From a virus, in IMG/VR virus record IMGVR_UViG_3300032053_000483, positions 1 to 25,023 of that record: a stretch of DNA of 25,023 nt; one strand, 5' to 3'. Within the stretch, counting starts at the first letter, position 1; each line of letters opens with the position of its first letter. A model generated the notes under the pieces. That model saw nothing but the letters and a program-made list of their open reading frames with translations, searched no databases and was not told where the DNA came from. The position numbers and the translations under genes were made by a program. Shown in pieces: positions 4,482 through 17,730 of this stretch.

Positions 4482-5062
4482 TAATCCGCCTCCCTTACCC
4501 ACCAATAAACCGGTTGTTCATCGGCCCCCCGATCCCTCAATTTATTCGTAAGAGGGTCGGTTAATTCAAATTTAATACCATGTGCCTTAGTATAGTCATT
4601 AACCGCCTCAACTACTCCGGCATAGTTTTGATGGCCTTTTTTAAAAGCATAATAATCATCGCCCGACACAACACCGCCGATTTTAACTCTTTTCGTCCAT
4701 TCGATTAAATCCTGCATCACATAGTCAAAGGCATGATTAGCGTCAATAAAAACAAAGTCCAGTGAAAAGTATTTAAACTTCTTGACCGCCTCCATACTCA
4801 TTTCTTTCATTATGTGAGTATTATACTTAGCCAATCTCTCGGTGGCGGCTTTAAAATTACCGTCATTTCTTGCATAACTGCCCGACCAACGATTCCCATG
4901 ATACGGTCGCCAAATATCAATGCACCAAAGTTCCAAATCTGGCATTGCCTGACACATCGCCTCGGAGAAAACTCCTCCAGCTACCCCAATCTCGGCTCCC
5001 TTTTTAAAACCCAACTCGTTAAAGTATTTCAAAAGTTCATATTTGCTCTTCACGGGTTCCAT
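4481..5062 (-). CDS. SAM-dependent methyltransferase (Methyltransf_24 type)
   Basis: 193 residues. GAEIGVAGGVFSEAM (22-36) is motif I, LELWCIDIW (43-51) strand 2, and YFSLDFVFIDANHAFDYVMQDL (about 98-119) is the diagnostic strand-4 segment of this group, whose IDxxHxxxxxxxDL pattern is shared with sugar and cephalosporin hydroxylase-like methyltransferases. GGVVSGDDYY follows as strand 5 with the metal-type DD. The start overlaps the end of the GT2 gene by 26 bases, with AAGAAGG directly before the ATG. Likely O-methylates a sugar in the glycan built by the neighbouring transferases (inference). Confidence 0.8.
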   Translation of the reverse strand: MEPVKSKYELLKYFNELGFKKGAEIGVAGGVFSEAMCQAMPDLELWCIDIWRPYHGNRWSGSYARNDGNFKAATERLAKYNTHIMKEMSMEAVKKFKYFSLDFVFIDANHAFDYVMQDLIEWTKRVKIGGVVSGDDYYAFKKGHQNYAGVVEAVNDYTKAHGIKFELTDPLTNKLRDRGADEQPVYWWVREAD

Positions 5063-5930
5063 CCTTCTTTATCTCTGCTAAACCATCAGTCTCAACGCTT
5101 GGCACTTCCTCGGCATTATCATTCCATGTCGGGACAGGGGCGAATTTATCCACCAACCATCTCACATTATATATTTGTTTCCGCCAGTTTTGTTGAGTCA
5201 ACCACTTCTTAACGTGTTCCTGGGCTTTTAATCCTTCCGAACTGGGTAAACTGTAACCTCTTGATTCGTTTTTATGCCAGTGGGCGTACCAGGTCTTCTT
5301 GTTTACCTTGACCTTACCGCCCGACAACCAACACTTTAACCCGATTTCTTGAAACTCGACCCAGAAAGTACCATAGTTTGCCTCATCCATAAGGTCTAGG
5401 TAGTCAAAATAGGTCTTTTTCATAAACCAAACACTTCCTTGATTGCTCATCGTGTCATCAATCAGGACTTCTTTTAACCTTAAATCGTGGTTTTTCTCAT
5501 CCCAGACCACTCCATGAAGTTCACTGGAGAGATACATATAGTCGATGGGGTACTTATTGTCCGTCCTTTCTTCAATTTGCCACTTCTGAGGGTCTAGGGC
5601 ATACCTTCTTGGCACGACAACCCAATTATCTTCACATTCTGCCTTCAATATCTCATCATAACCCTCTCCGAACATACAATGAGCATCCAATTTCATCAGA
5701 TAGTCACCTTTAGCGATTGCACGAGCCGAATTAATAGCATTTCTCATCCCTTTAGCGGTACTGAAGTGTAAATAGATAACTCTGGGGTCTTCAACTATCT
5801 CATTTGCGGGCATCCAATATCCATCAAGAACAACAATAATTTCTATTTCTCCTTTGGCTTTGGACAGTAAGTCCAATATGGTTTTCTGAAGATATGGTTC
5901 GTTGCGGGCTGGAATAATGGCAGTAATCAT
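5037..5930 (-). CDS. Family 2 (GT-A) glycosyltransferase
   Basis: 297 residues from the ATG at 5930; an open extension to a GTG at 5990 adds 20 residues, but GT2 proteins usually begin within a few residues of the first strand, here MITAIIPARNE. IIVVLDGYW (31-39) is the second strand with the nucleotide-binding Asp. DYLMKLDAHCMFGEGYDE (77-93) contains a DxH motif (Asp82, His84) of the kind found in GalNAc-transferase-like GT2 enzymes, and GTFWVEFQEIGLKCW carries the acceptor-side Glu region. It begins the modification operon right after two virion-type genes. A polypeptide acceptor is possible because DxH enzymes include O-GalNAc transferases, but this is inference. No clear Shine-Dalgarno at either start. 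Confidence 0.85.
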   Translation of the reverse strand: MITAIIPARNEPYLQKTILDLLSKAKGEIEIIVVLDGYWMPANEIVEDPRVIYLHFSTAKGMRNAINSARAIAKGDYLMKLDAHCMFGEGYDEILKAECEDNWVVVPRRYALDPQKWQIEERTDNKYPIDYMYLSSELHGVVWDEKNHDLRLKEVLIDDTMSNQGSVWFMKKTYFDYLDLMDEANYGTFWVEFQEIGLKCWLSGGKVKVNKKTWYAHWHKNESRGYSLPSSEGLKAQEHVKKWLTQQNWRKQIYNVRWLVDKFAPVPTWNDNAEEVPSVETDGLAEIKKDGTREEQI

Positions 5931-5980
5931 ATTTATATGTTCTGGCTCGGTACAGACATAGAAACCAGACTCATAATCTA

Positions 5981-6010
5981 CATATAACACATGAAATTAG
6001 TTTAATGCAA
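5981..6010 (-). promoter_or_regulatory. Weak candidate promoter before the glycosylation operon
   Basis: On the minus strand TTGCAT (6005-6010) and TATATG (5981-5986) are 18 bp apart, with a TGT in the extended -10 position. Predicted transcription starts near 5974, upstream of the ATG at 5930 but downstream of the alternative GTG at 5990, which would support the shorter GT2 start. Both boxes are imperfect. Confidence 0.3.
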
Positions 6011-6374: not shown

Positions 6375-7403
6375 TTAAATATCAGGATAACTTGGTGATG
6401 GTGATGGACTCAAACTTACCGATGAACTTGGTGATGGCGATAAACTCGGACTCAAGGAGACGGACACACTCGGGCTGACAGATGGTGACAAACTAACACT
6501 AACCGAAGGACTCAATGATACCGAGACCGAAGGACTTAACGATGGTGAACGACTAATACTGACTGACGGGCTAAGACTCACACTGACTGAAGGTGAGACG
6601 CTTGGCGACCAGCTAGCACTCGGCGATTTGGAAGGTGAAGATGATGGACTTGGACTCTTTGAAGTACTGACTGATGGGCTGACACTTGGACTCAACGAGA
6701 CGCTGACTGATGGACTTAAAGATACTGATACACTTGGACTTACTGAAGGCGAAAGGCTGACACTCACTGAAGGTGATAGAGAGACACTCACGCTTGGAGA
6801 CAAGGATACCGAGACACTTGGAGAAACGCTCGGCGAAACTGAAAGACTTGGCGATAGGGAGACTGAAACACTCGGTGATTCCGAAAGACTTGGAGAGAGA
6901 GAAACACTCACAGAAGGCGACAAAGAGACAGAGACTGACGGAGAAACACTTGGCGAGAGTGAAACCGATACGGACGGTGACACAGAGGGAGACTTGCTTA
7001 TACTTACAGATGGAGACAATGAGAGTGAAACTGATGGCGAGAATGACCCGATACTTTCAGTTCCAGTAACCAATGACCAAACGGCAGTCGTTGAAGTGCC
7101 GGTATTAGTATAAAGATTGGAACCTGTTTTGTTTAGATGCCAGAAGAAAGCACCTTGCATAAATCCTGAATAACTAGTCGGTAAGGTAGTGCCTTCTGCC
7201 TCTAAAATCGTATCAGCACTAGTTGCTGGTAGGTTGGTTAATGAAGCTGAATAACGAAGCACCCGATTAGTTAAATAAGGAGTCAAAGCAGTTAAAAAAG
7301 CCGTTTCAAGAGTTTTTCTTTGTGTAGAAGTGATAGCCTCAATTCTTGCGATTTCGGCTTGTGTTTCTGCTGGTAAGTCCGTTTTTATTTCAAATGTCGC
7401 CAT
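6375..7403 (-). CDS. Virion-type protein with long Ser-Pro/Ser-Val mucin-like repeat
   Basis: 342 residues in two parts. Residues 1-120 look folded: a helical start (TQAEIARIEAITSTQRKTL), then GTTLPTSYSGFMQGAFFWHL and a strand-rich end. Residues 122-338 are a degenerate repeat in which nearly every second residue is Ser, with Pro, Val, Leu or Ile between (SPSVSVSLSPSVSPSVSVSL). It ends SYPDI. Codons for the same peptide unit vary (AGT, AGC, TCA, TCG, TCC), so the peptide pattern appears kept by selection and not by fresh slippage. It lies after the capsid gene and before a glycosyltransferase operon, which suggests a surface protein that is O-glycosylated. Function inferred only from composition and context. 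Confidence 0.65.
   Translation of the reverse strand: MATFEIKTDLPAETQAEIARIEAITSTQRKTLETAFLTALTPYLTNRVLRYSASLTNLPATSADTILEAEGTTLPTSYSGFMQGAFFWHLNKTGSNLYTNTGTSTTAVWSLVTGTESIGSFSPSVSLSLSPSVSISKSPSVSPSVSVSLSPSVSPSVSVSLSPSVSVSLSPSLSESPSVSVSLSPSLSVSPSVSPSVSVSLSPSVSVSLSPSVSVSLSPSVSPSVSVSLSPSVSVSLSPSVSPSVSTSKSPSPSSSPSKSPSASWSPSVSPSVSVSLSPSVSISRSPSLSPSVSVSLSPSVSVSLSPSVSPSVSVSLSPSLSPSPSSSVSLSPSPSPSYPDI
6390..7040 (-). repeat. Degenerate tandem repeat coding Ser-X-Ser-X peptide
   Basis: About 217 codons with a core unit near SPSVSVSL (18-30 bp), arranged irregularly. The opposite strand is also open across the array (6628-7113) and reads acidic TDG/TEGD/TLGD units; this is a by-product of the repeat but matters for the insertion at 3314-3379. 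Synonymous codon drift between units indicates an old array. Confidence 0.9.
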
Positions 7404-8686: not shown

Positions 8687-9490
8687 TTATAATCCGAGTT
8701 CTATCTTACCCGACCGTAACATTTCTTTATATTTCTCATAATTGGTCGTTCTTAGAGTCCTTGCCTCCTCTATGGTAATCTTATCCCCTTTTGGTTTACC
8801 TTTGTCATTCGGCCCACCACTTCCTGTTTCGAACATCTGCCCTTTCTTTTTGGGTTCGGGTTTAAGACCGTATAAGAAGGAAGAAACTATATCCTCAAAG
8901 TCAACATTCCTTCTTGTCGGTTTGGTGGCAAAGAGTTTAAACTCGCTCTCTTTCCCGTCAAGTTCGGGATACTTAGTCAGATTGGCGACATCGGCAACAA
9001 ACTCATCCACTTTAGTCACCCAACCCTCCAAGTCTTTGTTCTCTTTAACAATCTCATCAAGAGCTTTTAACCTTTTAGCATTGGTTATACTGTCCTTCCC
9101 CATCTTCTTTTCAAAGTCACTCATTAACTCCCAGTCTGGAAACTCTTGTATCAACTCATCGTTGGTTGGTTCGGCAGTCGCAAGTGCCTTGTCAAGTGCT
9201 TCGGTCATCTTTTTGTTCTTGGCATGAAGGATTTGAGCCTCCTGAGCAGACGCAACCAGTCTTTCCTTCTCTCTTTGGGCGACATCTTTAATAATTTCCT
9301 TAGAAGGTACCGGTTCTTCTACCTCAACCTCTGGTGTTTCCTCAACGGGAGTCACTTCAACCGGAGTTTCTTCGGGAGCTTCAACCGGTTCTTCCTGTGG
9401 GGTTTCTTTTAGTGCTTCGGCTTCTTCAAGTGCTTTTTGAGCACCAGCCTCTAATTCATCGGTGGTCGGTTTAACATGGAGTTTGGGCAT
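8687..9490 (-). CDS. Scaffold-like head assembly protein
   Basis: 267 residues, acidic and mostly helical, with AAAGGAAA as ribosome site. Residues 20-65 are a Glu/Pro/Val/Thr-rich disordered stretch (PVEAPEETPVEVTPVEETPE), then coiled-coil-like helices (EIIKDVAQREKERLVASAQEAQ; NAKRLKALDEIVKENKDLEGW). Near the C-terminus there is a basic PKKKGQMFETGSGGPNDKGKPKG linker and a last helix. Disordered start, coiled coil and basic C-terminus directly upstream of the coat gene are typical of scaffolding proteins that bind coat subunits during procapsid assembly. No protease domain seen. Call rests on position and composition. Confidence 0.65.
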   Translation of the reverse strand: MPKLHVKPTTDELEAGAQKALEEAEALKETPQEEPVEAPEETPVEVTPVEETPEVEVEEPVPSKEIIKDVAQREKERLVASAQEAQILHAKNKKMTEALDKALATAEPTNDELIQEFPDWELMSDFEKKMGKDSITNAKRLKALDEIVKENKDLEGWVTKVDEFVADVANLTKYPELDGKESEFKLFATKPTRRNVDFEDIVSSFLYGLKPEPKKKGQMFETGSGGPNDKGKPKGDKITIEEARTLRTTNYEKYKEMLRSGKIELGL

Positions 9491-9530
9491 ATTTTCCTTT
9501 CGTCCTATTTCTAGGGTTAGATAATAATAA

Positions 9531-13424: not shown

Positions 13425-13676
13425 TCAGTTATCTCTACTTGTTGGCAAATTACAGACTACCCAGTCGTGTCCGGTTAAATCGGCTTCGGAAATAATCCAT
13501 TGATAGTCTTTGTTATCGTCTTTGTGTAAAATCAAAAAACCGTTTCTTAATACAACATAGACATTACTATTTGCCCACTCTAACTTAGTAATTGTTTTGC
13601 CGTCAATCACTACCTTTAAAGCGGTTGGTAAATCCATTCCTATCGGCATCCTAGAAACTATTTGTCCTTCTTCCAT
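13425..13676 (-). CDS. Tad2-like (DUF2829) protein, putative anti-Thoeris
   Basis: 83 residues with strong GAGGAGG ribosome site. From residue 15 the pattern fits the Tad2/DUF2829 domain: DLPTALKVVIDGKTITKLEW (15-34: amphipathic helix, GK, then conserved Trp34), two strands VYVVLRNGFLIL (39-50), then YQWIISEADLTGHDWVVC (58-75) with Trp60, Ser63, Asp66-Leu67 and Asp71-Trp72. Tad2 proteins bind and sequester the cyclic ADP-ribose signal of Thoeris defence, and short DUF2829 proteins of about this size are common in phages. Whether this copy binds the signal is unknown. Lies just before the terminase genes. Confidence 0.7.
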   Translation of the reverse strand: MEEGQIVSRMPIGMDLPTALKVVIDGKTITKLEWANSNVYVVLRNGFLILHKDDNKDYQWIISEADLTGHDWVVCNLPTSRDN

Positions 13677-14437: not shown

Positions 14438-14550
14438 TCTTTTTTCTCCATCCCGCACTTTTCTCTTTCGTAGTGTTCCATAACTAACCACATCCCGATT
14501 AAGAAACCAAGAGTAAAGACAAGTAAAATTAAAAGTATTAAAAGTATCAT
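14434..14550 (-). CDS. 38-residue single-helix membrane microprotein
   Basis: MILLILLILLVFTLGFLIGMWLV forms one hydrophobic helix at the N-terminus, followed by a charged cytoplasmic-type tail (EHYEREKCGMEKKE). Both ends are shared: ATGA with the upstream gene and ATGA with the nuclease gene. No family known. Confidence 0.65.
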   Translation of the reverse strand: MILLILLILLVFTLGFLIGMWLVMEHYEREKCGMEKKE

Positions 14551-14723
14551 TTCTTGTCCTTCCATCCATCCGGTTGCATTATGTCCAGCATTTCTTTAAT
14601 AACCGCAAATGCCTCCCATGTGATGCAAATAGCACAGAAGCGGCTCTTGTATTTACACTTCTTGCCCGCAACCTCAATTAGTCTTTTTTCAAGTCTATTT
14701 AATAGTTTTTCGTCTCTTGTCAT
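14547..14723 (-). CDS. Small hypothetical protein with Cys pairs
   Basis: 58 residues from the ATG at 14723, which overlaps the upstream stop by ATGA and has GGGTGGGG just before; a GTG 9 bases further up is less likely. A basic first helix (DEKLLNRLEKRLIEVAGKK), then CKYKSRFCAIC with three close Cys and a final helix. Could bind a metal. Function unknown. Confidence 0.55.
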   Translation of the reverse strand: MTRDEKLLNRLEKRLIEVAGKKCKYKSRFCAICITWEAFAVIKEMLDIMQPDGWKDKK

Positions 14724-14875
14724 TTTCCCCACCCATATTGTGTATCAATCAGTATTTTCTTAATAAGAAGCATCAACTCGTCTAACTCTTGCCAACTAAA
14801 GGTATATTTAATCCCTTTGATTTCCACCGAGTAAAGACCAGTCTTTTTGTTGAATGTTATAAAAAATTGGTTCAT
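14720..14875 (-). CDS. 51-residue hypothetical protein
   Basis: MNQFFITFNKKTGLYSVEIKG folds as strands, followed by a helix (SWQELDELMLLIKKILID) ending QYGWGK. Start and stop are both in ATGA overlaps with the neighbours, the best sign it is real. Strand-helix microproteins of this kind are usual in phage early regions; no function recognised. Confidence 0.6.
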   Translation of the reverse strand: MNQFFITFNKKTGLYSVEIKGIKYTFSWQELDELMLLIKKILIDTQYGWGK

Positions 14876-15123
14876 ACTCGCCTTTTAAACGCTTCCTTAA
14901 TTTTTAACTCTTGTGCTTTAACGGCGTTATTCCAACCTACCTGGTCGCCAAACCAATCCTCATAGTCTTGTTTCTTTAACTTTATTTCTTCAGCAAATTC
15001 AGAAAGTTCTTCAATAATTAACTCAAGGAAATTAGGAATACCGTAAATTTGGCCTTTATCGTACTGCTTTAACAACTTACTTATTTTCTTACAGATTACC
15101 CAACCCCAATTTTTATTTTTCAT
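14872..15123 (-). CDS. Hypothetical 83-residue protein with GWNxA tail
   Basis: Basic N-terminus, amphipathic helices (ICKKISKLLKQYD; FLELIIEELSEFAEEIKLKK), then DQVGWNNAVKAQELKIKEAF. The VGWNxA plus helix ending also occurs in the 98-residue protein at 15226-15522 (VGWNSALTELETRL), suggesting related ends. ATGA overlap with the preceding 33-residue gene. Function unknown. Confidence 0.6.
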   Translation of the reverse strand: MKNKNWGWVICKKISKLLKQYDKGQIYGIPNFLELIIEELSEFAEEIKLKKQDYEDWFGDQVGWNNAVKAQELKIKEAFKRRV

Positions 15124-15221
15124 TTCTTATAAATCAATCTTACTAACTTGTTAATCAACCCTTTGGTTAGTTTGTGTCTCTTGGTTAGTTTTTCCAAGCC
15201 TTTAATGTCTTGGGTGTTCAT
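15120..15221 (-). CDS. 33-residue basic microprotein
   Basis: MNTQDIKGLEKLTKRHKLTKGL then NKLVRLIYKK. Strongly basic, helical, with an internal KLTK repeat. Ends in an ATGA overlap with the next gene; its start region ACCTATTAAAAGAATG copies that upstream of the gene at 15226-15522. Could bind nucleic acid. Low certainty because of size. Confidence 0.5.
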   Translation of the reverse strand: MNTQDIKGLEKLTKRHKLTKGLINKLVRLIYKK

Positions 15222-15225
15222 TCTT

Positions 15226-15522
15226 TTAATAGGTTAATTTCAGCCTTGTTTCTAATTCGGTCAAGGCACTATTCCAACCAACCGAATATCTATTTTTATC
15301 AGTTTCTCTCTTGTCCCACATTTTATCTATTGCCTCCTCCACCTTTTTCTCTAATTCAGTCTTTTGGGCTTTGAGTGCTTTATAGTGTAAGTTGTCCAAG
15401 AAATTAGTTGTTTGGTCAATAACGGCAGACGAGGAGTGTGGTTCTTCGCTGGCATAATAAACCCCACTAATTAAATGTCTTAATTTTTCTTTGTCCCAAG
15501 TAGTTATTTTTTTATCTTTCAT
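15226..15522 (-). CDS. Hypothetical 98-residue protein (MKDK start cassette)
   Basis: Good ribosome site GAAAGGAAAG. Begins MKDKKITTWDKEKLRHL; mainly helical with a central coiled-coil-like run (KALKAQKTELEKKVEEAIDKMWDK) and a VGWNSALTELETRLKL end similar to the 83-residue protein downstream. Its start region is nearly the same as those of the genes at 15810-15962 and 15976-16098. Function unknown. Confidence 0.65.
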   Translation of the reverse strand: MKDKKITTWDKEKLRHLISGVYYASEEPHSSSAVIDQTTNFLDNLHYKALKAQKTELEKKVEEAIDKMWDKRETDKNRYSVGWNSALTELETRLKLTY

Positions 15523-15533
15523 TCTTTCCTTTC

Positions 15534-15779
15534 TTATTCTTTTAATAGGTTTTTGTTTAAAAAAGTAATCGTAATTCTAGAGATGCCTGTTCCTTTCAAA
15601 AGTTTTATCAATTTGTCAATCGTTTTTGTATAGTCAGGCGGGTTAGTCACCATGTGTTTATCAGACATAAAAAAATAAATCATCTCAATTTCTTCTCCGC
15701 CTTTACTTACTTTTCGGAAGTAATCCACATTTTCGGTATCATAAACTGGCTTGTAAATTATTGACATATCTTTCTTCAT
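15534..15779 (-). CDS. Hypothetical 81-residue protein
   Basis: Strong ribosome site AAGGAGGAAAG. Alternating strands and one helix: MSIIYKPVYD, EIEMIYFFMSD, then YTKTIDKLIKLLKGTGISRITITFLNK, which looks like a helix followed by a terminal strand, a small alpha/beta unit. Third member of the group with a shared start region. No family recognised. Confidence 0.6.
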   Translation of the reverse strand: MKKDMSIIYKPVYDTENVDYFRKVSKGGEEIEMIYFFMSDKHMVTNPPDYTKTIDKLIKLLKGTGISRITITFLNKNLLKE

Positions 15780-15809
15780 TCTTTCCTCCTTATTCTTTTA
15801 AGTTCCATA

Positions 15810-15962
15810 TTAGTATTTGTCATTTTCAAGCAACCAATCGTTAAATCCCATTCCTCCTGCTTCAAATTTATCTTTGAAAGCTCGCTTATAAATTTCCTTC
15901 ATAGCTAATTTATGAGCCCTTTTTTGTGCCTTAATTATTATCTTCTCCTTTTTATCTTTCAT
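15810..15962 (-). CDS. 50-residue basic microprotein (MKDKK start)
   Basis: MKDKKEKIIIKAQKRAHKLA, then a second helix and EAGGMGFNDWLLENDKY. Ribosome site AAGGAAGGAAAG. Codes cleanly to a TAA; the first residues copy those of the genes at 15226-15522 and 15976-16098. Basic N-terminal helix, acidic end. Function unknown. Confidence 0.55.
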   Translation of the reverse strand: MKDKKEKIIIKAQKRAHKLAMKEIYKRAFKDKFEAGGMGFNDWLLENDKY

Positions 15963-15975
15963 TCTTTCCTTCCTT

Positions 15976-16098
15976 TTATTTATTAAAACTTATTAAGAAC
16001 TTTGCGAGGGGCTTGGGTTGGCCGTTACGGGTATTTCGTCCCCCCATTGTTTCCAATTTCCCCGACCCTGGCAAAATTCTCAAAGTTTTATCTTTCAT
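15976..16098 (-). CDS. 40-residue microprotein (MKDKT start)
   Basis: Begins MKDKTLRILPGSGKLETMGG with ribosome site AAGGAAAG. After the first four residues it has nothing in common with the others of the group. GSGK here is too short and out of context to be a P-loop. It may be a real tiny protein or a leftover of duplication of the start region. Confidence 0.4.
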   Translation of the reverse strand: MKDKTLRILPGSGKLETMGGRNTRNGQPKPLAKFLISFNK

Positions 16099-16126
16099 TC
16101 TTTCCTTATTCTTTTAAGTTAGTAAA

Positions 16127-16345
16127 TTATTTTTCTATAATATCCACTAAATCTTTAATTGACCCCGTGCTAAACCTGTCATGCTCACACTCTATATTTA
16201 CCCCAGAGCTTAAAGGAACAAGAAATCTTTGTAAACAAGTTCTACATTGAAATACTTTGTATAATTGTTTCCCGGTCTGGGGAGAACCCGTTGCTGGTAC
16301 TTTACCATTTAGTGGACCTTCAAATGTTTTACTTTCCATTTTCAT
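16127..16345 (-). CDS. Small zinc-ribbon-like protein
   Basis: 72 residues. VFQCRTCLQRFLVPLSSGVNIECEHD holds Cys34, Cys37, Cys53 and His55, a probable metal knuckle around a beta hairpin. The N-terminal 30 residues are Gly/Pro/Thr-rich, the C-terminus one helix. AAAGGAGG lies in the end of the upstream gene, and its ATG overlaps that stop. Possible nucleic-acid or protein-binding adaptor. Confidence 0.6.
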   Translation of the reverse strand: MKMESKTFEGPLNGKVPATGSPQTGKQLYKVFQCRTCLQRFLVPLSSGVNIECEHDRFSTGSIKDLVDIIEK

Positions 16346-16482
16346 TTTCCTCCTTTAAACAAATAATTTATTAACCAAAAAAAGAATGGCACTATAAAAC
16401 TACCAATTACCATCCCGGCTAGAAATAATATCCAACCGTGGTCAAGTATGTATAAGACTATTTCTATTTCTGGTATGTTCAT
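16342..16482 (-). CDS. 46-residue membrane microprotein
   Basis: MNIPEIEIVLYILDHGWILF, then LAGMVIGSFIVPFFFWLINYLF, one long hydrophobic helix, ending KGGK. The codons of KGGK are also the ribosome site of the next gene. ATGA overlap at both ends, third of a run of tiny membrane proteins. Confidence 0.65.
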   Translation of the reverse strand: MNIPEIEIVLYILDHGWILFLAGMVIGSFIVPFFFWLINYLFKGGK

Positions 16483-16649
16483 TTAATTACTCCTAATCCT
16501 TGAAGTCCCCATAAAAAACCTATCACCATTAGTAAAACCAAAAAAATATAAAAGAGACCTTCTCTAAATTCTTCATCTACTATTGTTGCCACAATTATTA
16601 TTACTCCAAATATAATTGCGGGTATAAATCCCAAAAGTTGTATTTTCAT
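16479..16649 (-). CDS. 56-residue two-helix membrane protein
   Basis: Starts at MKIQLLGFIPAIIFGVIIIVAT (ATG at 16649, ATGA overlap with the upstream gene; a longer reading to 16694 has no such support). First helix about 4-22, charged turn VDEEFREG, second helix LFYIFLVLLMVIGFLWGL. This hairpin shape would suit a class II holin-like or spanin-accessory protein, but the proper lysis cassette lies at 22641-21087. Confidence 0.65.
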   Translation of the reverse strand: MKIQLLGFIPAIIFGVIIIVATIVDEEFREGLFYIFLVLLMVIGFLWGLQGLGVIK

Positions 16650-16765
16650 TTCAATATAAAAAATAGTGCAACTATGACCGCCCCAATCAAGCACCCTAAA
16701 ATAAACTGGCCTATCATTTCTTCATATCTCTCTTCGTTTTGGGTAAGTTTGGTTAGTATATTCAT
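16646..16765 (-). CDS. 39-residue tail-anchored membrane microprotein
   Basis: Charged N-terminus MNILTKLTQNEERYEEMIGQ followed by one C-terminal hydrophobic helix FILGCLIGAVIVALFFIL. Joined to both neighbours by ATGA overlaps. The layout is that of a small tail-anchored protein. Function unknown. Confidence 0.6.
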   Translation of the reverse strand: MNILTKLTQNEERYEEMIGQFILGCLIGAVIVALFFILK

Positions 16766-16920
16766 TTTGTTTTCCGGTGCCGTAATACTCTAATTAAAAA
16801 ACATAAAAGCGAGTATTGAGAAACTCTGTCGAGAACAATAGAGTTATATTTATCGCTGGCAGAAACCAGCCCACCTTCTTCAAGTTCCCAAATACAGCCT
16901 CTTTTTAATTGAGTTCTCAT
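16762..16920 (-). CDS. 52-residue hypothetical protein
   Basis: MRTQLKRGCIWELEEGGLVS then ASDKYNSIVLDRVSQYSLLC and a basic end VLRHRKTK. No convincing membrane helix. Kept as a gene because start and stop each overlap a neighbour by ATGA. Confidence 0.5.
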   Translation of the reverse strand: MRTQLKRGCIWELEEGGLVSASDKYNSIVLDRVSQYSLLCFLIRVLRHRKTK

Positions 16921-17489
16921 TTACATTCACCTCTACTAATTGGCCCCCACTCTTTGCCATAACCTCTTACAAGAGCGTAAGCTGTAGTCTCTATTGAATA
17001 AAATGGGCTAAATCTATCTCCTAACTCATTAACTAAACCTTTCTTAATCATTTCTTTTCTTATCCGGTTATAAGTAGCCTCTCTAAATTGCAAGACTCCA
17101 CAACTTTTACCGGAATCACCGCAACTTTCATTCTCGCCGAAGTTGCTCTCTTCTCTTAACAAACAGTATAGTTGGTAAATTATGTAATTCTTTTGCTTGG
17201 CACTGCCGGTAAACCTCTCGGCGGTCATTTCTACCATATTGGGAATCGATTGTCGCACAATCTCTTTTGCCTCCATTAGGGTAAGAAACTTAACCTTGTA
17301 ATTATTATCTACCGCCCCAACCTCCGGCACCGGACTTATAATCGGGGCTTTTAATTCTTTCTCGTACCAAAGTGAGGCCAAATATATAAGGGCCATTATC
17401 ATTAAGAACATGAGAGCCATTCTAAAGAACCAATGGTTGCGGTAACTAACTTTTTTCCAGGCTTTGTAGGCTTTCTTGTATTTTAACAT
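16917..17489 (-). CDS. Membrane-anchored lytic transglycosylase-like protein (SLT fold)
   Basis: 190 residues from the ATG at 17489, chosen because GGAGG stands 10 bases before it; the longer frame to 17651 has low-quality sequence. Residues 23-41 (MALMFLMIMALIYLASLW) are one membrane helix after a basic start, so the enzyme domain would lie outside the cytoplasm. REESNFGENESCGDSGKSCGVLQF holds the SLT signature: catalytic Glu of EESNF, two Cys that may form a disulfide, and GVLQF. PFYSIETTAYALVRGYGKEWG is the last conserved helix. It would cut peptidoglycan, either at DNA entry or to help lysis. Sequence-only call. Confidence 0.75.
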   Translation of the reverse strand: MLKYKKAYKAWKKVSYRNHWFFRMALMFLMIMALIYLASLWYEKELKAPIISPVPEVGAVDNNYKVKFLTLMEAKEIVRQSIPNMVEMTAERFTGSAKQKNYIIYQLYCLLREESNFGENESCGDSGKSCGVLQFREATYNRIRKEMIKKGLVNELGDRFSPFYSIETTAYALVRGYGKEWGPISRGECK

Positions 17490-17517
17490 TTGGTTAATTC
17501 CTCCGGGTTCGGGCCGG

Positions 17518-17730
17518 TTATCTGCTCGGCAGGACAGGCCCGACTCCGGGGGCATCAACGCCTCCGGTACTATCAGTAAACAACTTCTTCGACCTTTGTA
17601 CCTTAAGTTCAAACTTGACAAGCGACTGACACGAGAAACACAACTCCTCACCGAAAGCGTGAAACGAATAACTCGCCACCTTCTCGTGAATTATTGTCCC
17701 GCACTTTGTACACTTGTTTGAAAATTCCAT
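17518..17730 (-). CDS. Small double-CxxC zinc protein
   Basis: 70 residues from ATG at 17730, directly after the upstream stop at 17732. CTKCG (7-11) and CFSCQ (31-35) are spaced as in a zinc ribbon. The last 20 residues are Gly/Pro/Val-rich and unstructured. An in-frame longer start lies inside the previous gene and is unlikely. Possible nucleic-acid binding. Confidence 0.6.
   Translation of the reverse strand: MEFSNKCTKCGTIIHEKVASYSFHAFGEELCFSCQSLVKFELKVQRSKKLFTDSTGGVDAPGVGPVLPSR

Follow-up and report, generated by a model that had tools for sequence, protein, structure and literature searches.

Near-identical leaders before neighbouring tiny phage genes suggest local copying of an intercistronic junction

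Four neighbouring tiny genes of a phage start behind copies of nearly the same leader; the copies are local, the proteins encoded downstream have no detectable relation to each other, and related phages show the same pattern with other sequences. The similarity among the four leaders is real, and we put a probability of about 0.55 on the reading that junctions between genes were copied locally while tiny genes were gained, lost or swapped. The four starts, and in part a fifth, would then be copies by descent of one intercistronic junction. The origin of phage orphan genes is an open question, and a copied junction of stop, ribosome site and start would set the origin of the translation signals apart from that of the coding sequence. 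The mark left by such copying, a local leader array, can be counted in any phage genome set, and nearly identical leaders in front of different bodies are natural test constructs. Sets of copied gene starts may be left over from the exchange or creation of small genes in phages.

The stretch analysed, here called the window, is the whole virus record of 25,023 bases, and the genes discussed lie on its minus strand. Genes on this strand gave PHROG matches to large terminase, small terminase and major head; CHAP and glycosyltransferase domains were found with Pfam; and a 593-aa protein without PHROG match is named portal by its position only. Alignment of this protein retrieved 180 relatives in viral contigs, of which 80 were kept, together with a contig of a Candidatus Woesebacteria MAG at 61% identity and a second genome contig, Patescibacteria-labelled, at 36%. 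A patescibacterial host is likely for the phage group and, by extension from the group, Patescibacteria are probably the host of the window phage.

The common leader of the four minus-strand starts is TTAAAAGAATAAG..GGAAAGAATGAA together with the first codons. Copy 1 (AACTTAAAAGAATAAGGAAAGAATGAA, 16094-16120) belongs to start 16098, with MKDK as first codons. Copy 2 (15958-15984, start 15962) is the loosest in its upstream part, with AAATAAAAGG in place of AAAAGAATAAG, and the stop of the previous ORF lies inside it. Indels of 3-4 nt set the copies apart: in copy 3 (15775-15804, start 15779) the ATG is preceded by an additional GGA and followed by an additional GAA, and copy 4 (AACCTATTAAAAGAATAAGAAAGGAAAGAATGAA, 15518-15551, start 15522) has 4 extra nt. 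A partial leader on the same strand (AACCTATTAAAAGAATGAA, 15217-15235, start 15221) has AACCTATTAAAAGAAT (16 nt) in common with 15522, lacks GGAAAGA and carries ATGAAC directly after AAAAGA, as might be expected if the part of copy 4 that separates its two AAAGAAT had been lost. An earlier note on this DNA had reported five neighbouring genes with nearly the same start region; shared leader and first codons bear this out for four of them, and 15221 belongs in part only. It had also given MKDK or MKK as the first residues: MKDK opens three of the proteins, and that of 15779 begins with MKKD.

Searches of the window show which parts of the leader carry the signal. All four starts have an exact GGAAAGAATGAA, and no other site comes within 1 mismatch of it (0.5 expected); exact copies of GAAAGAATGAAAGATAAAA lie at 16098, 15962 and 15522, with no further site within 3 mismatches (0.06 expected). 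The longer AAAAGAATAAGGAAAGAATGAA is exact at start 16098 only and has 2 sites with up to 3 mismatches against 0.01 expected, in an ungapped search that misses copies with indels. TTAAAAGAATAAG is exact at 16098, 15779 and 15522, and with up to 2 mismatches it has 6 sites against 3.3 expected, so that this part taken alone is a weak signal. The likeness includes bases outside the Shine-Dalgarno site, namely the TTAAAAGAAT part and codons 2-4.

Pairs of starts in the window were scored by the best local alignment of their -40..+20 contexts. The six pair scores among the four starts are 32-53, against a mean of 14.7 (sd 3.9) for the window's 1,225 start pairs. Their summed score of 279 was reached in 0 of 3,000 simulations under each of three nulls, one built on the window's own smoothed composition and two in which the 12-nt core GGAAAGAATGAA was given free. 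With the core free, the largest simulated sums, 276 and 274, came close to the observed one, and single pairs were only mildly unusual, with p 0.03 and 0.015 for the maximum pair and 0.08 and 0.03 for the minimum pair. Real starts provided a more realistic control: 461 ATG starts with a Shine-Dalgarno site were taken from 56 other loci, 165 of them AT-rich and 113 with ATGAA, and quartets were drawn from different loci (8,539 + 8,205 + 8,250 = 24,994). None of the 24,994, AT-rich and ATGAA-matched quartets included, exceeded 177. A scan statistic, taking the best four of six consecutive genes, gave 281 for locus L074, 279 for the window, 177 for the next locus and a median of 107.

These figures bear on the alternative that AT-rich composition, a Shine-Dalgarno site and lysine-rich starts yield look-alike leaders by convergence. 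The GGAAAG core and ATGAA are what such constraints favour, lysine stands at position 2 in 192 of 1,234 proteins, and the core given free leaves single pairs only mildly unusual, as described above. Moreover, scores at the bottom of the range can result from composition without copying, since in the AT-rich comparator FPSV-S2 12 of 1,275 far pairs score at least 32. Nevertheless, no real quartet from relatives came near 279, MKDK opens only 4 of the 1,234 called proteins, three of these in the window array, and none of 6,807 start pairs at least 13 genes apart in the related loci reaches 32. We consider convergence highly improbable. A refutation test set beforehand, in which modelling of AT bias and Shine-Dalgarno constraint should bring the similarity down to background, was run, and the leader likeness stays above background (279 against a maximum of 177 for real quartets).

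The ORFs behind the leaders, all on the minus strand, were examined by codon statistics with the first five codons left out; held-out 35-codon pieces of long genes gave a median z of 1.5 and a fifth percentile of -0.2, and off-frame pieces a median of -0.7. The 40-aa ORF behind copy 1 (15976-16098) has no coding signal (z -0.9) and is a candidate nascent or spurious frame. Those behind copy 2 (15810-15962, 50 aa) and copy 4 (15226-15522, 98 aa, with the VGWNSALTELETRL tail) are coding-like, with z of 2.3 and 3.8, and that behind copy 3 (15534-15779, 81 aa), whose last codons and stop lie within copy 4, is weakly so (z 1.8); a homologue was found for none of these three. Behind the partial leader, the 33-aa ORF (15120-15221) has an absent or borderline coding signal (z -0.3). 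The next ORF (14872-15123, 83 aa) has a VGWNNA tail and a start region that is not of the leader type. The bodies of 15962, 15779 and 15522 thus look like ordinary coding sequence in the frame set by the leader, as in imported or mature genes, and 16098, less clearly 15221, look like nascent or non-coding frames.

Whole small genes might instead have been duplicated in tandem and their coding parts then have diverged fast, selection for translation keeping the leader. The genes are indeed neighbouring, tiny and in the same orientation, and two proteins share the VGWNxA ending remarked on earlier, SVGWNSA in 15226-15522 and QVGWNNA in 14872-15123, with 16 of 19 nt identical in the DNA and none expected in 100 shuffles. 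On the other side, beyond residue 8 the four proteins show no similarity (scores 13-26), in agreement with the earlier statement that the downstream parts differ; the lengths are 40, 50, 81 and 98 aa; GC is 0.45 in the body of 16098 against 0.31-0.37 in the others; and, apart from one 14-nt pair elsewhere, the direct repeats found in 14500-16600 are those of the leaders and the tail. Tandem duplication therefore appears quite improbable. The tail may fit a unit made of an intercistronic junction. A pattern chosen after two of its four proteins had been seen, [GAQSEKR][WYF]N.A[LIVF], turns up within the last 36 residues of four small proteins, with no other occurrence in 804 (Fisher p 0.049). 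Two of these proteins, from L011 and L023, are products of genes whose ends make a shared junction.

The leaders appear to sit in an orphan island between conserved neighbours, since all 11 ORFs (14720 to 16646) of the minus-strand stretch 14720-16765 lack a tblastn match in the other fetched loci at E up to 0.05, with queries so short that they are hard to match, the ORFs on either side, 14547 and 16762, have weak matches in L006/L009 (E 5e-5, 2e-4), and L006 has other genes at the island's place. A related-locus search, which reaches close relatives only, found none for 15226-15522, 14872-15123, 16127-16345 and 15534-15779. Pfam gave matches below cut-off only for the ten proteins scanned, among them TetR_C_24 for the 98-aa protein (E 0.0013), which was not used. 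The four tiny proteins scanned against PHROGs had no match, and a nucleotide search of 14600-16600 against phage records gave none either. The exact gapped leader pattern had 0 matches in IMG/VR viral contigs, from which near-identical records were possibly left out, and, leaving aside L001, the locus of the window itself, GGAAAGAATGA occurs once in L011, once in L086 and nowhere in the other 87 loci; hence we see no sign of a family-wide leader signal. An RNA element was rejected, with no Rfam match, no tRNA and leaders that fold no better than shuffles. A promoter or terminator unit was not supported either by a scan of 14500-17000, which gave 0 terminator-like sites and 11 promoter-like sites against 8.3 (sd 2.5) expected, using the sigma-70 consensus only.

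Related phages were compared in a set of 57 dereplicated loci (680 kb and 1,234 called genes, window included), with starts from a home-made gene caller, contexts of -30..+15 and a cut-off score of at least 32. Pairs reaching this score amount to 28 of 5,315 within 5 genes, 4 of 5,246 at 6-12 genes and 0 of 6,807 at 13 genes or more, pairs within one locus not being independent; with the window left out they are 21 of 5,080 near and 0 of 6,104 far pairs. Control coding segments 60 nt inside genes gave 1 of 4,456 near pairs. When gene order was permuted in 2,000 trials the near count was never reached, with 28 against a maximum of 20 with the window, 21 against 18 without it, and 16 against 12 (again 2,000 trials) when three loci with CTAACCCT were also left out. 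Near pairs are present in 13 of the 57 loci, and in 10 of the 32 loci of at least 10 kb; the best score is no more than 42 in six of the 13 (L027, L038, L043, L061, L072 and L090), and the clear cases are the window, L074, L011, L036, L058, L023 and L002. Genes in near pairs are somewhat shorter than genes overall (median 77 against 104 aa, p 0.014). Proteins of the 46 start pairs listed score 13-43 past residue 8.

The earlier note had proposed comparing such cassettes among related phages, and some relatives turn out to have sets of their own. In L074 four consecutive genes have TTACCAAAGAAGAAT or a near-copy, without a canonical Shine-Dalgarno site, and this leader has single scattered matches in six other kept loci. 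A pair in L011 shares 30 identical nt, one in L023 21 nt and one in L002 17 identical nt; for the L011 and L023 leaders no match within 2 mismatches was found in the other kept loci. The near pairs of L036 and L058 are CTAACCCT leaders, and L086 has a pair of that type 6 genes apart.

Such private sets have to be set against the main rival to local junction copying, a lineage-specific functional leader like the SAS of cluster K, in which a phage or host factor or an initiation enhancer would act on TTAAAAGAATAAG..GGAAAGAATG of one co-regulated gene set and selection would keep the copies alike. We regard this as possible, though on the whole unlikely. The copies do lie at starts and in one orientation, their RNA is weakly structured (z -0.1 to 0.7 for all five leaders), SPO1 early genes have leaders in common too, and functional leaders do exist in this family, where some leaders reappear in front of structural genes from phage to phage. 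For the CTAACCCT..GGAC leaders, 18 of 26 plus-strand sites fall within 60 nt before a called start; the 15 minus-strand sites were only counted. Against a functional role of the window leader speak the lack of any match outside the window phage in IMG/VR viral contigs (near records possibly left out), its restriction to four neighbours, the unrelated sequences used by L074, L011 and L023, and a likeness that runs into codons 2-4.

The CTAACCCT..GGAC leader itself appears to be an SAS-like element of this phage group. It precedes a putative scaffold gene of 258-293 aa in eight loci, namely the window (9488-9520, minus strand, before start 9490), L026, L030, L036, L058, L068, L077 and L086; some loci have it before putative small-terminase or capsid genes as well, these names being given by position and eye. 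The SAS of cluster K mycobacteriophages has a 13-bp consensus, GGGATAGGAGCCC, with 11-19 dispersed copies and conservation throughout the cluster (PMC3203893). It lies just upstream of starts, nearly always in one orientation, before different gene families and with the Shine-Dalgarno site inside (PMC3203893). The window leader likewise lies a few nt upstream of starts, in one orientation and before unrelated genes, but its sequence, like that of the other sets, is private to each phage, its copies are adjacent and they reach into codons. With up to 3 mismatches the SAS consensus has 0 matches in the window. Conservation among related phages is absent for the window leader, near records having possibly been left out, whereas the CTAACCCT leader would show it.

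The copied unit is perhaps best described as an intercistronic junction, judging by the shared stretches of L011, L023, L005, L002 and the window. In L011 and L023 the stretch takes in the last codons of the upstream gene and an overlapping ATGA; in L002 it covers most of a 17-nt gap and the start; and in L005, whose score of 31 is below the cut-off and uncounted, a stop, a 7-nt gap and ATGAA are in common. The window leader contains, or comes after, the stop of the preceding gene, and copy 1 has, in TTAAAAGAATAAGGAAAGAATGA, a stop in each of three frames. The earlier idea that a ribosome site and start codons were copied is thus upheld by the non-Shine-Dalgarno bases, codons 2-4, the restriction to neighbours, scores above AT-rich and Shine-Dalgarno nulls and the sets in relatives, with the amendment that the unit looks like a gene-gene junction (stop, ribosome site, start) instead of a start module. 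Its further suggestion of gene birth goes beyond what the data show: three of the five bodies carry ordinary coding signal and only 16098, less clearly 15221, look nascent or non-coding.

A copied junction would run from a stop codon, or a stretch rich in stops, through a Shine-Dalgarno site to the ATG and roughly four codons. Copying would be local in the phage lineage, whether through recombination (short-homology or illegitimate) or through slippage during replication, and during it small orphan genes would be inserted, lost or exchanged in the hypervariable island upstream of the terminase genes. Each copy would end any preceding frame and open a new one, making the frame behind it translatable at once, and two copies flanking a gene would allow its clean loss or exchange. 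Which way and by what molecular route the copying went, whether the ORFs are translated and whether any of this is beneficial are matters of inference. A bolder version, speculative and rather doubtful in our judgement, would have tiny-gene islands built around self-propagating junctions of stop, ribosome site and start, which would multiply locally, closing upstream and opening downstream frames; foreign or non-coding DNA could become a translated gene in one step, recombination between copies could trim or swap genes in frame, and ORF 15976-16098 would be a gene caught at birth.

Near relatives give a few examples of genes inserted or exchanged at the start or end of a gene. The GGAGAATATGGCAAAA start, which in L044 belongs to the putative small-terminase gene, opens a 60-aa gene in L059; there the putative small-terminase gene has a second start, ATGGCAAA. 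A further case is a gene of L046 (1999-2613, HNH-type by eye) that L047/L049 lack: a 12-nt repeat flanks it, its last codons (RNI, stop) repeating the upstream gene's end over 12 nt. L088 against L085 shows a gene insertion or exchange at a start or end, judged by eye, and an 8.3-kb match between L050 and L055 ends within the first 6 nt of a gene. The seven insertions listed represent six events, L045 and L046 showing the same one, and only two events have overlapping flanks, of 12 and 7 nt. Among the relatives fetched, no pair was found of which one has and the other lacks a leader gene of the window, and for the window itself we therefore infer the copying. Of 89 right homology breakpoints, 52% have a stop within 20 nt (random 7%) and 29% a start (random 7%); for 98 left breakpoints the figures are 30% and 15%. 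Recombination boundaries specific to starts were rejected as evidence, since starts are above random but below stops, and the stop bias is as in ordinary mosaicism.

Several known systems resemble the window array in part. The PeSLs of T4-type phages were reportedly described as mobile regulatory cassettes by Arbiol (2010) and Comeau (2014). They are repeated intergenic elements tied to shuffling of small genes and carry an early promoter and a stem-loop (see also PMC4503421), whereas neither a stem-loop terminator nor a clear promoter excess was found at 14500-17000, the leaders folding at the level of shuffles. Lambdoid boundary sequences are short, lie at gene boundaries, act as recombination sites and are shared between phages at matching boundaries. 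PMC3029335 also mentions them. The window leaders are alike in being short shared boundary sequences and differ in that the copies lie within one genome.

The nearest single precedents, described in PMC3029335, come from the mycobacteriophages: Island3 genes 67/68, with a 60-bp shared 3' end in gp67/68, and LRRHood, with 29-bp repeats. There a small orphan gene or block lies between short direct repeats at gene ends or junctions, relatives have a single copy and repeat recombination is proposed, each event involving a single repeat pair of 29-60 bp at a 3' end or junction (PMC3029335). The window also has direct repeats at gene boundaries flanking an orphan gene, but it has an array of four to five leaders of stop, ribosome site and start, and relatives have their own arrays or pairs; by this comparison the adjacent private array seems to differ from the known cases. 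A single-copy relative without the inserted gene was found for none of the window genes, and comparable cases in relatives are L044/L059 and L046/L047. Titles and abstract beginnings of the phage literature searched, SPO1 and Patescibacteria viruses included, hold no description of private, adjacent leader arrays, which is no proof of absence.

Comparator phages were treated as genome stretches only, with the home-made gene caller on both strands and pairs of at least 32 counted as near, middle and far. SPO1 (1-25 kb) gave 5 of 320, 2 of 364 and 1 of 762, that is, local leader sharing, and the effect may extend beyond this phage family because SPO1 early genes show similar sharing. T4 (1-30 kb) gave 0 of 275, 2 of 301 and 0 of 630; AP45 0 of 435, 0 of 525 and 0 of 1,576; and part of phage G 0 of 206, 0 of 245 and 2 of 496. 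FPSV-S2, with 3 of 325 near and 4 of 381 middle pairs besides the far pairs given above, has no locality. Pixie, the SAS control, gave 1 of 260, 3 of 280 and 0 of 281, with one SAS pair, 8 genes apart, so that the pair score misses most SAS. Within the SPO1 stretch (L091, 4487-7571), gp41 and gp42 have a leader in common (CCAAGATTGTAAAAGGAGAGGTT), with weaker likeness at 5450, 5889 and 7571.

Other genes of the window and its relatives deserve mention. At 13425-13676, adjoining the terminase genes, a Pfam Tad2-like (Thoeris anti-defence 2) match lies just over cut-off (27.3 against 25 bits, E 5e-6) and has tblastn matches in 28 fetched loci, making it a possible conserved anti-defence gene. 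The large terminase of the sister phage L006 (8904-10928) has 674 aa against 398 aa in the window, and its insert of about 276 aa, which starts with CVDGNTLV and ends with GGILVSN before a C, looks by eye like an intein. SLT-like and MRTQLKRG-type genes stand in apparently swapped order in the window (16762-17651) and L006 (4630-5486), in a pairing judged by eye and with the SLT match below cut-off. Finally, a 342-aa protein with long SPSVSVSLSPS repeats (6375-7403), possibly a glycosylated virion fibre, adjoins glycosyltransferase and methyltransferase genes (GT2 at 5037-5990; FkbM at 1009-1641), and a similar serine-proline repeat protein is encoded by L004.
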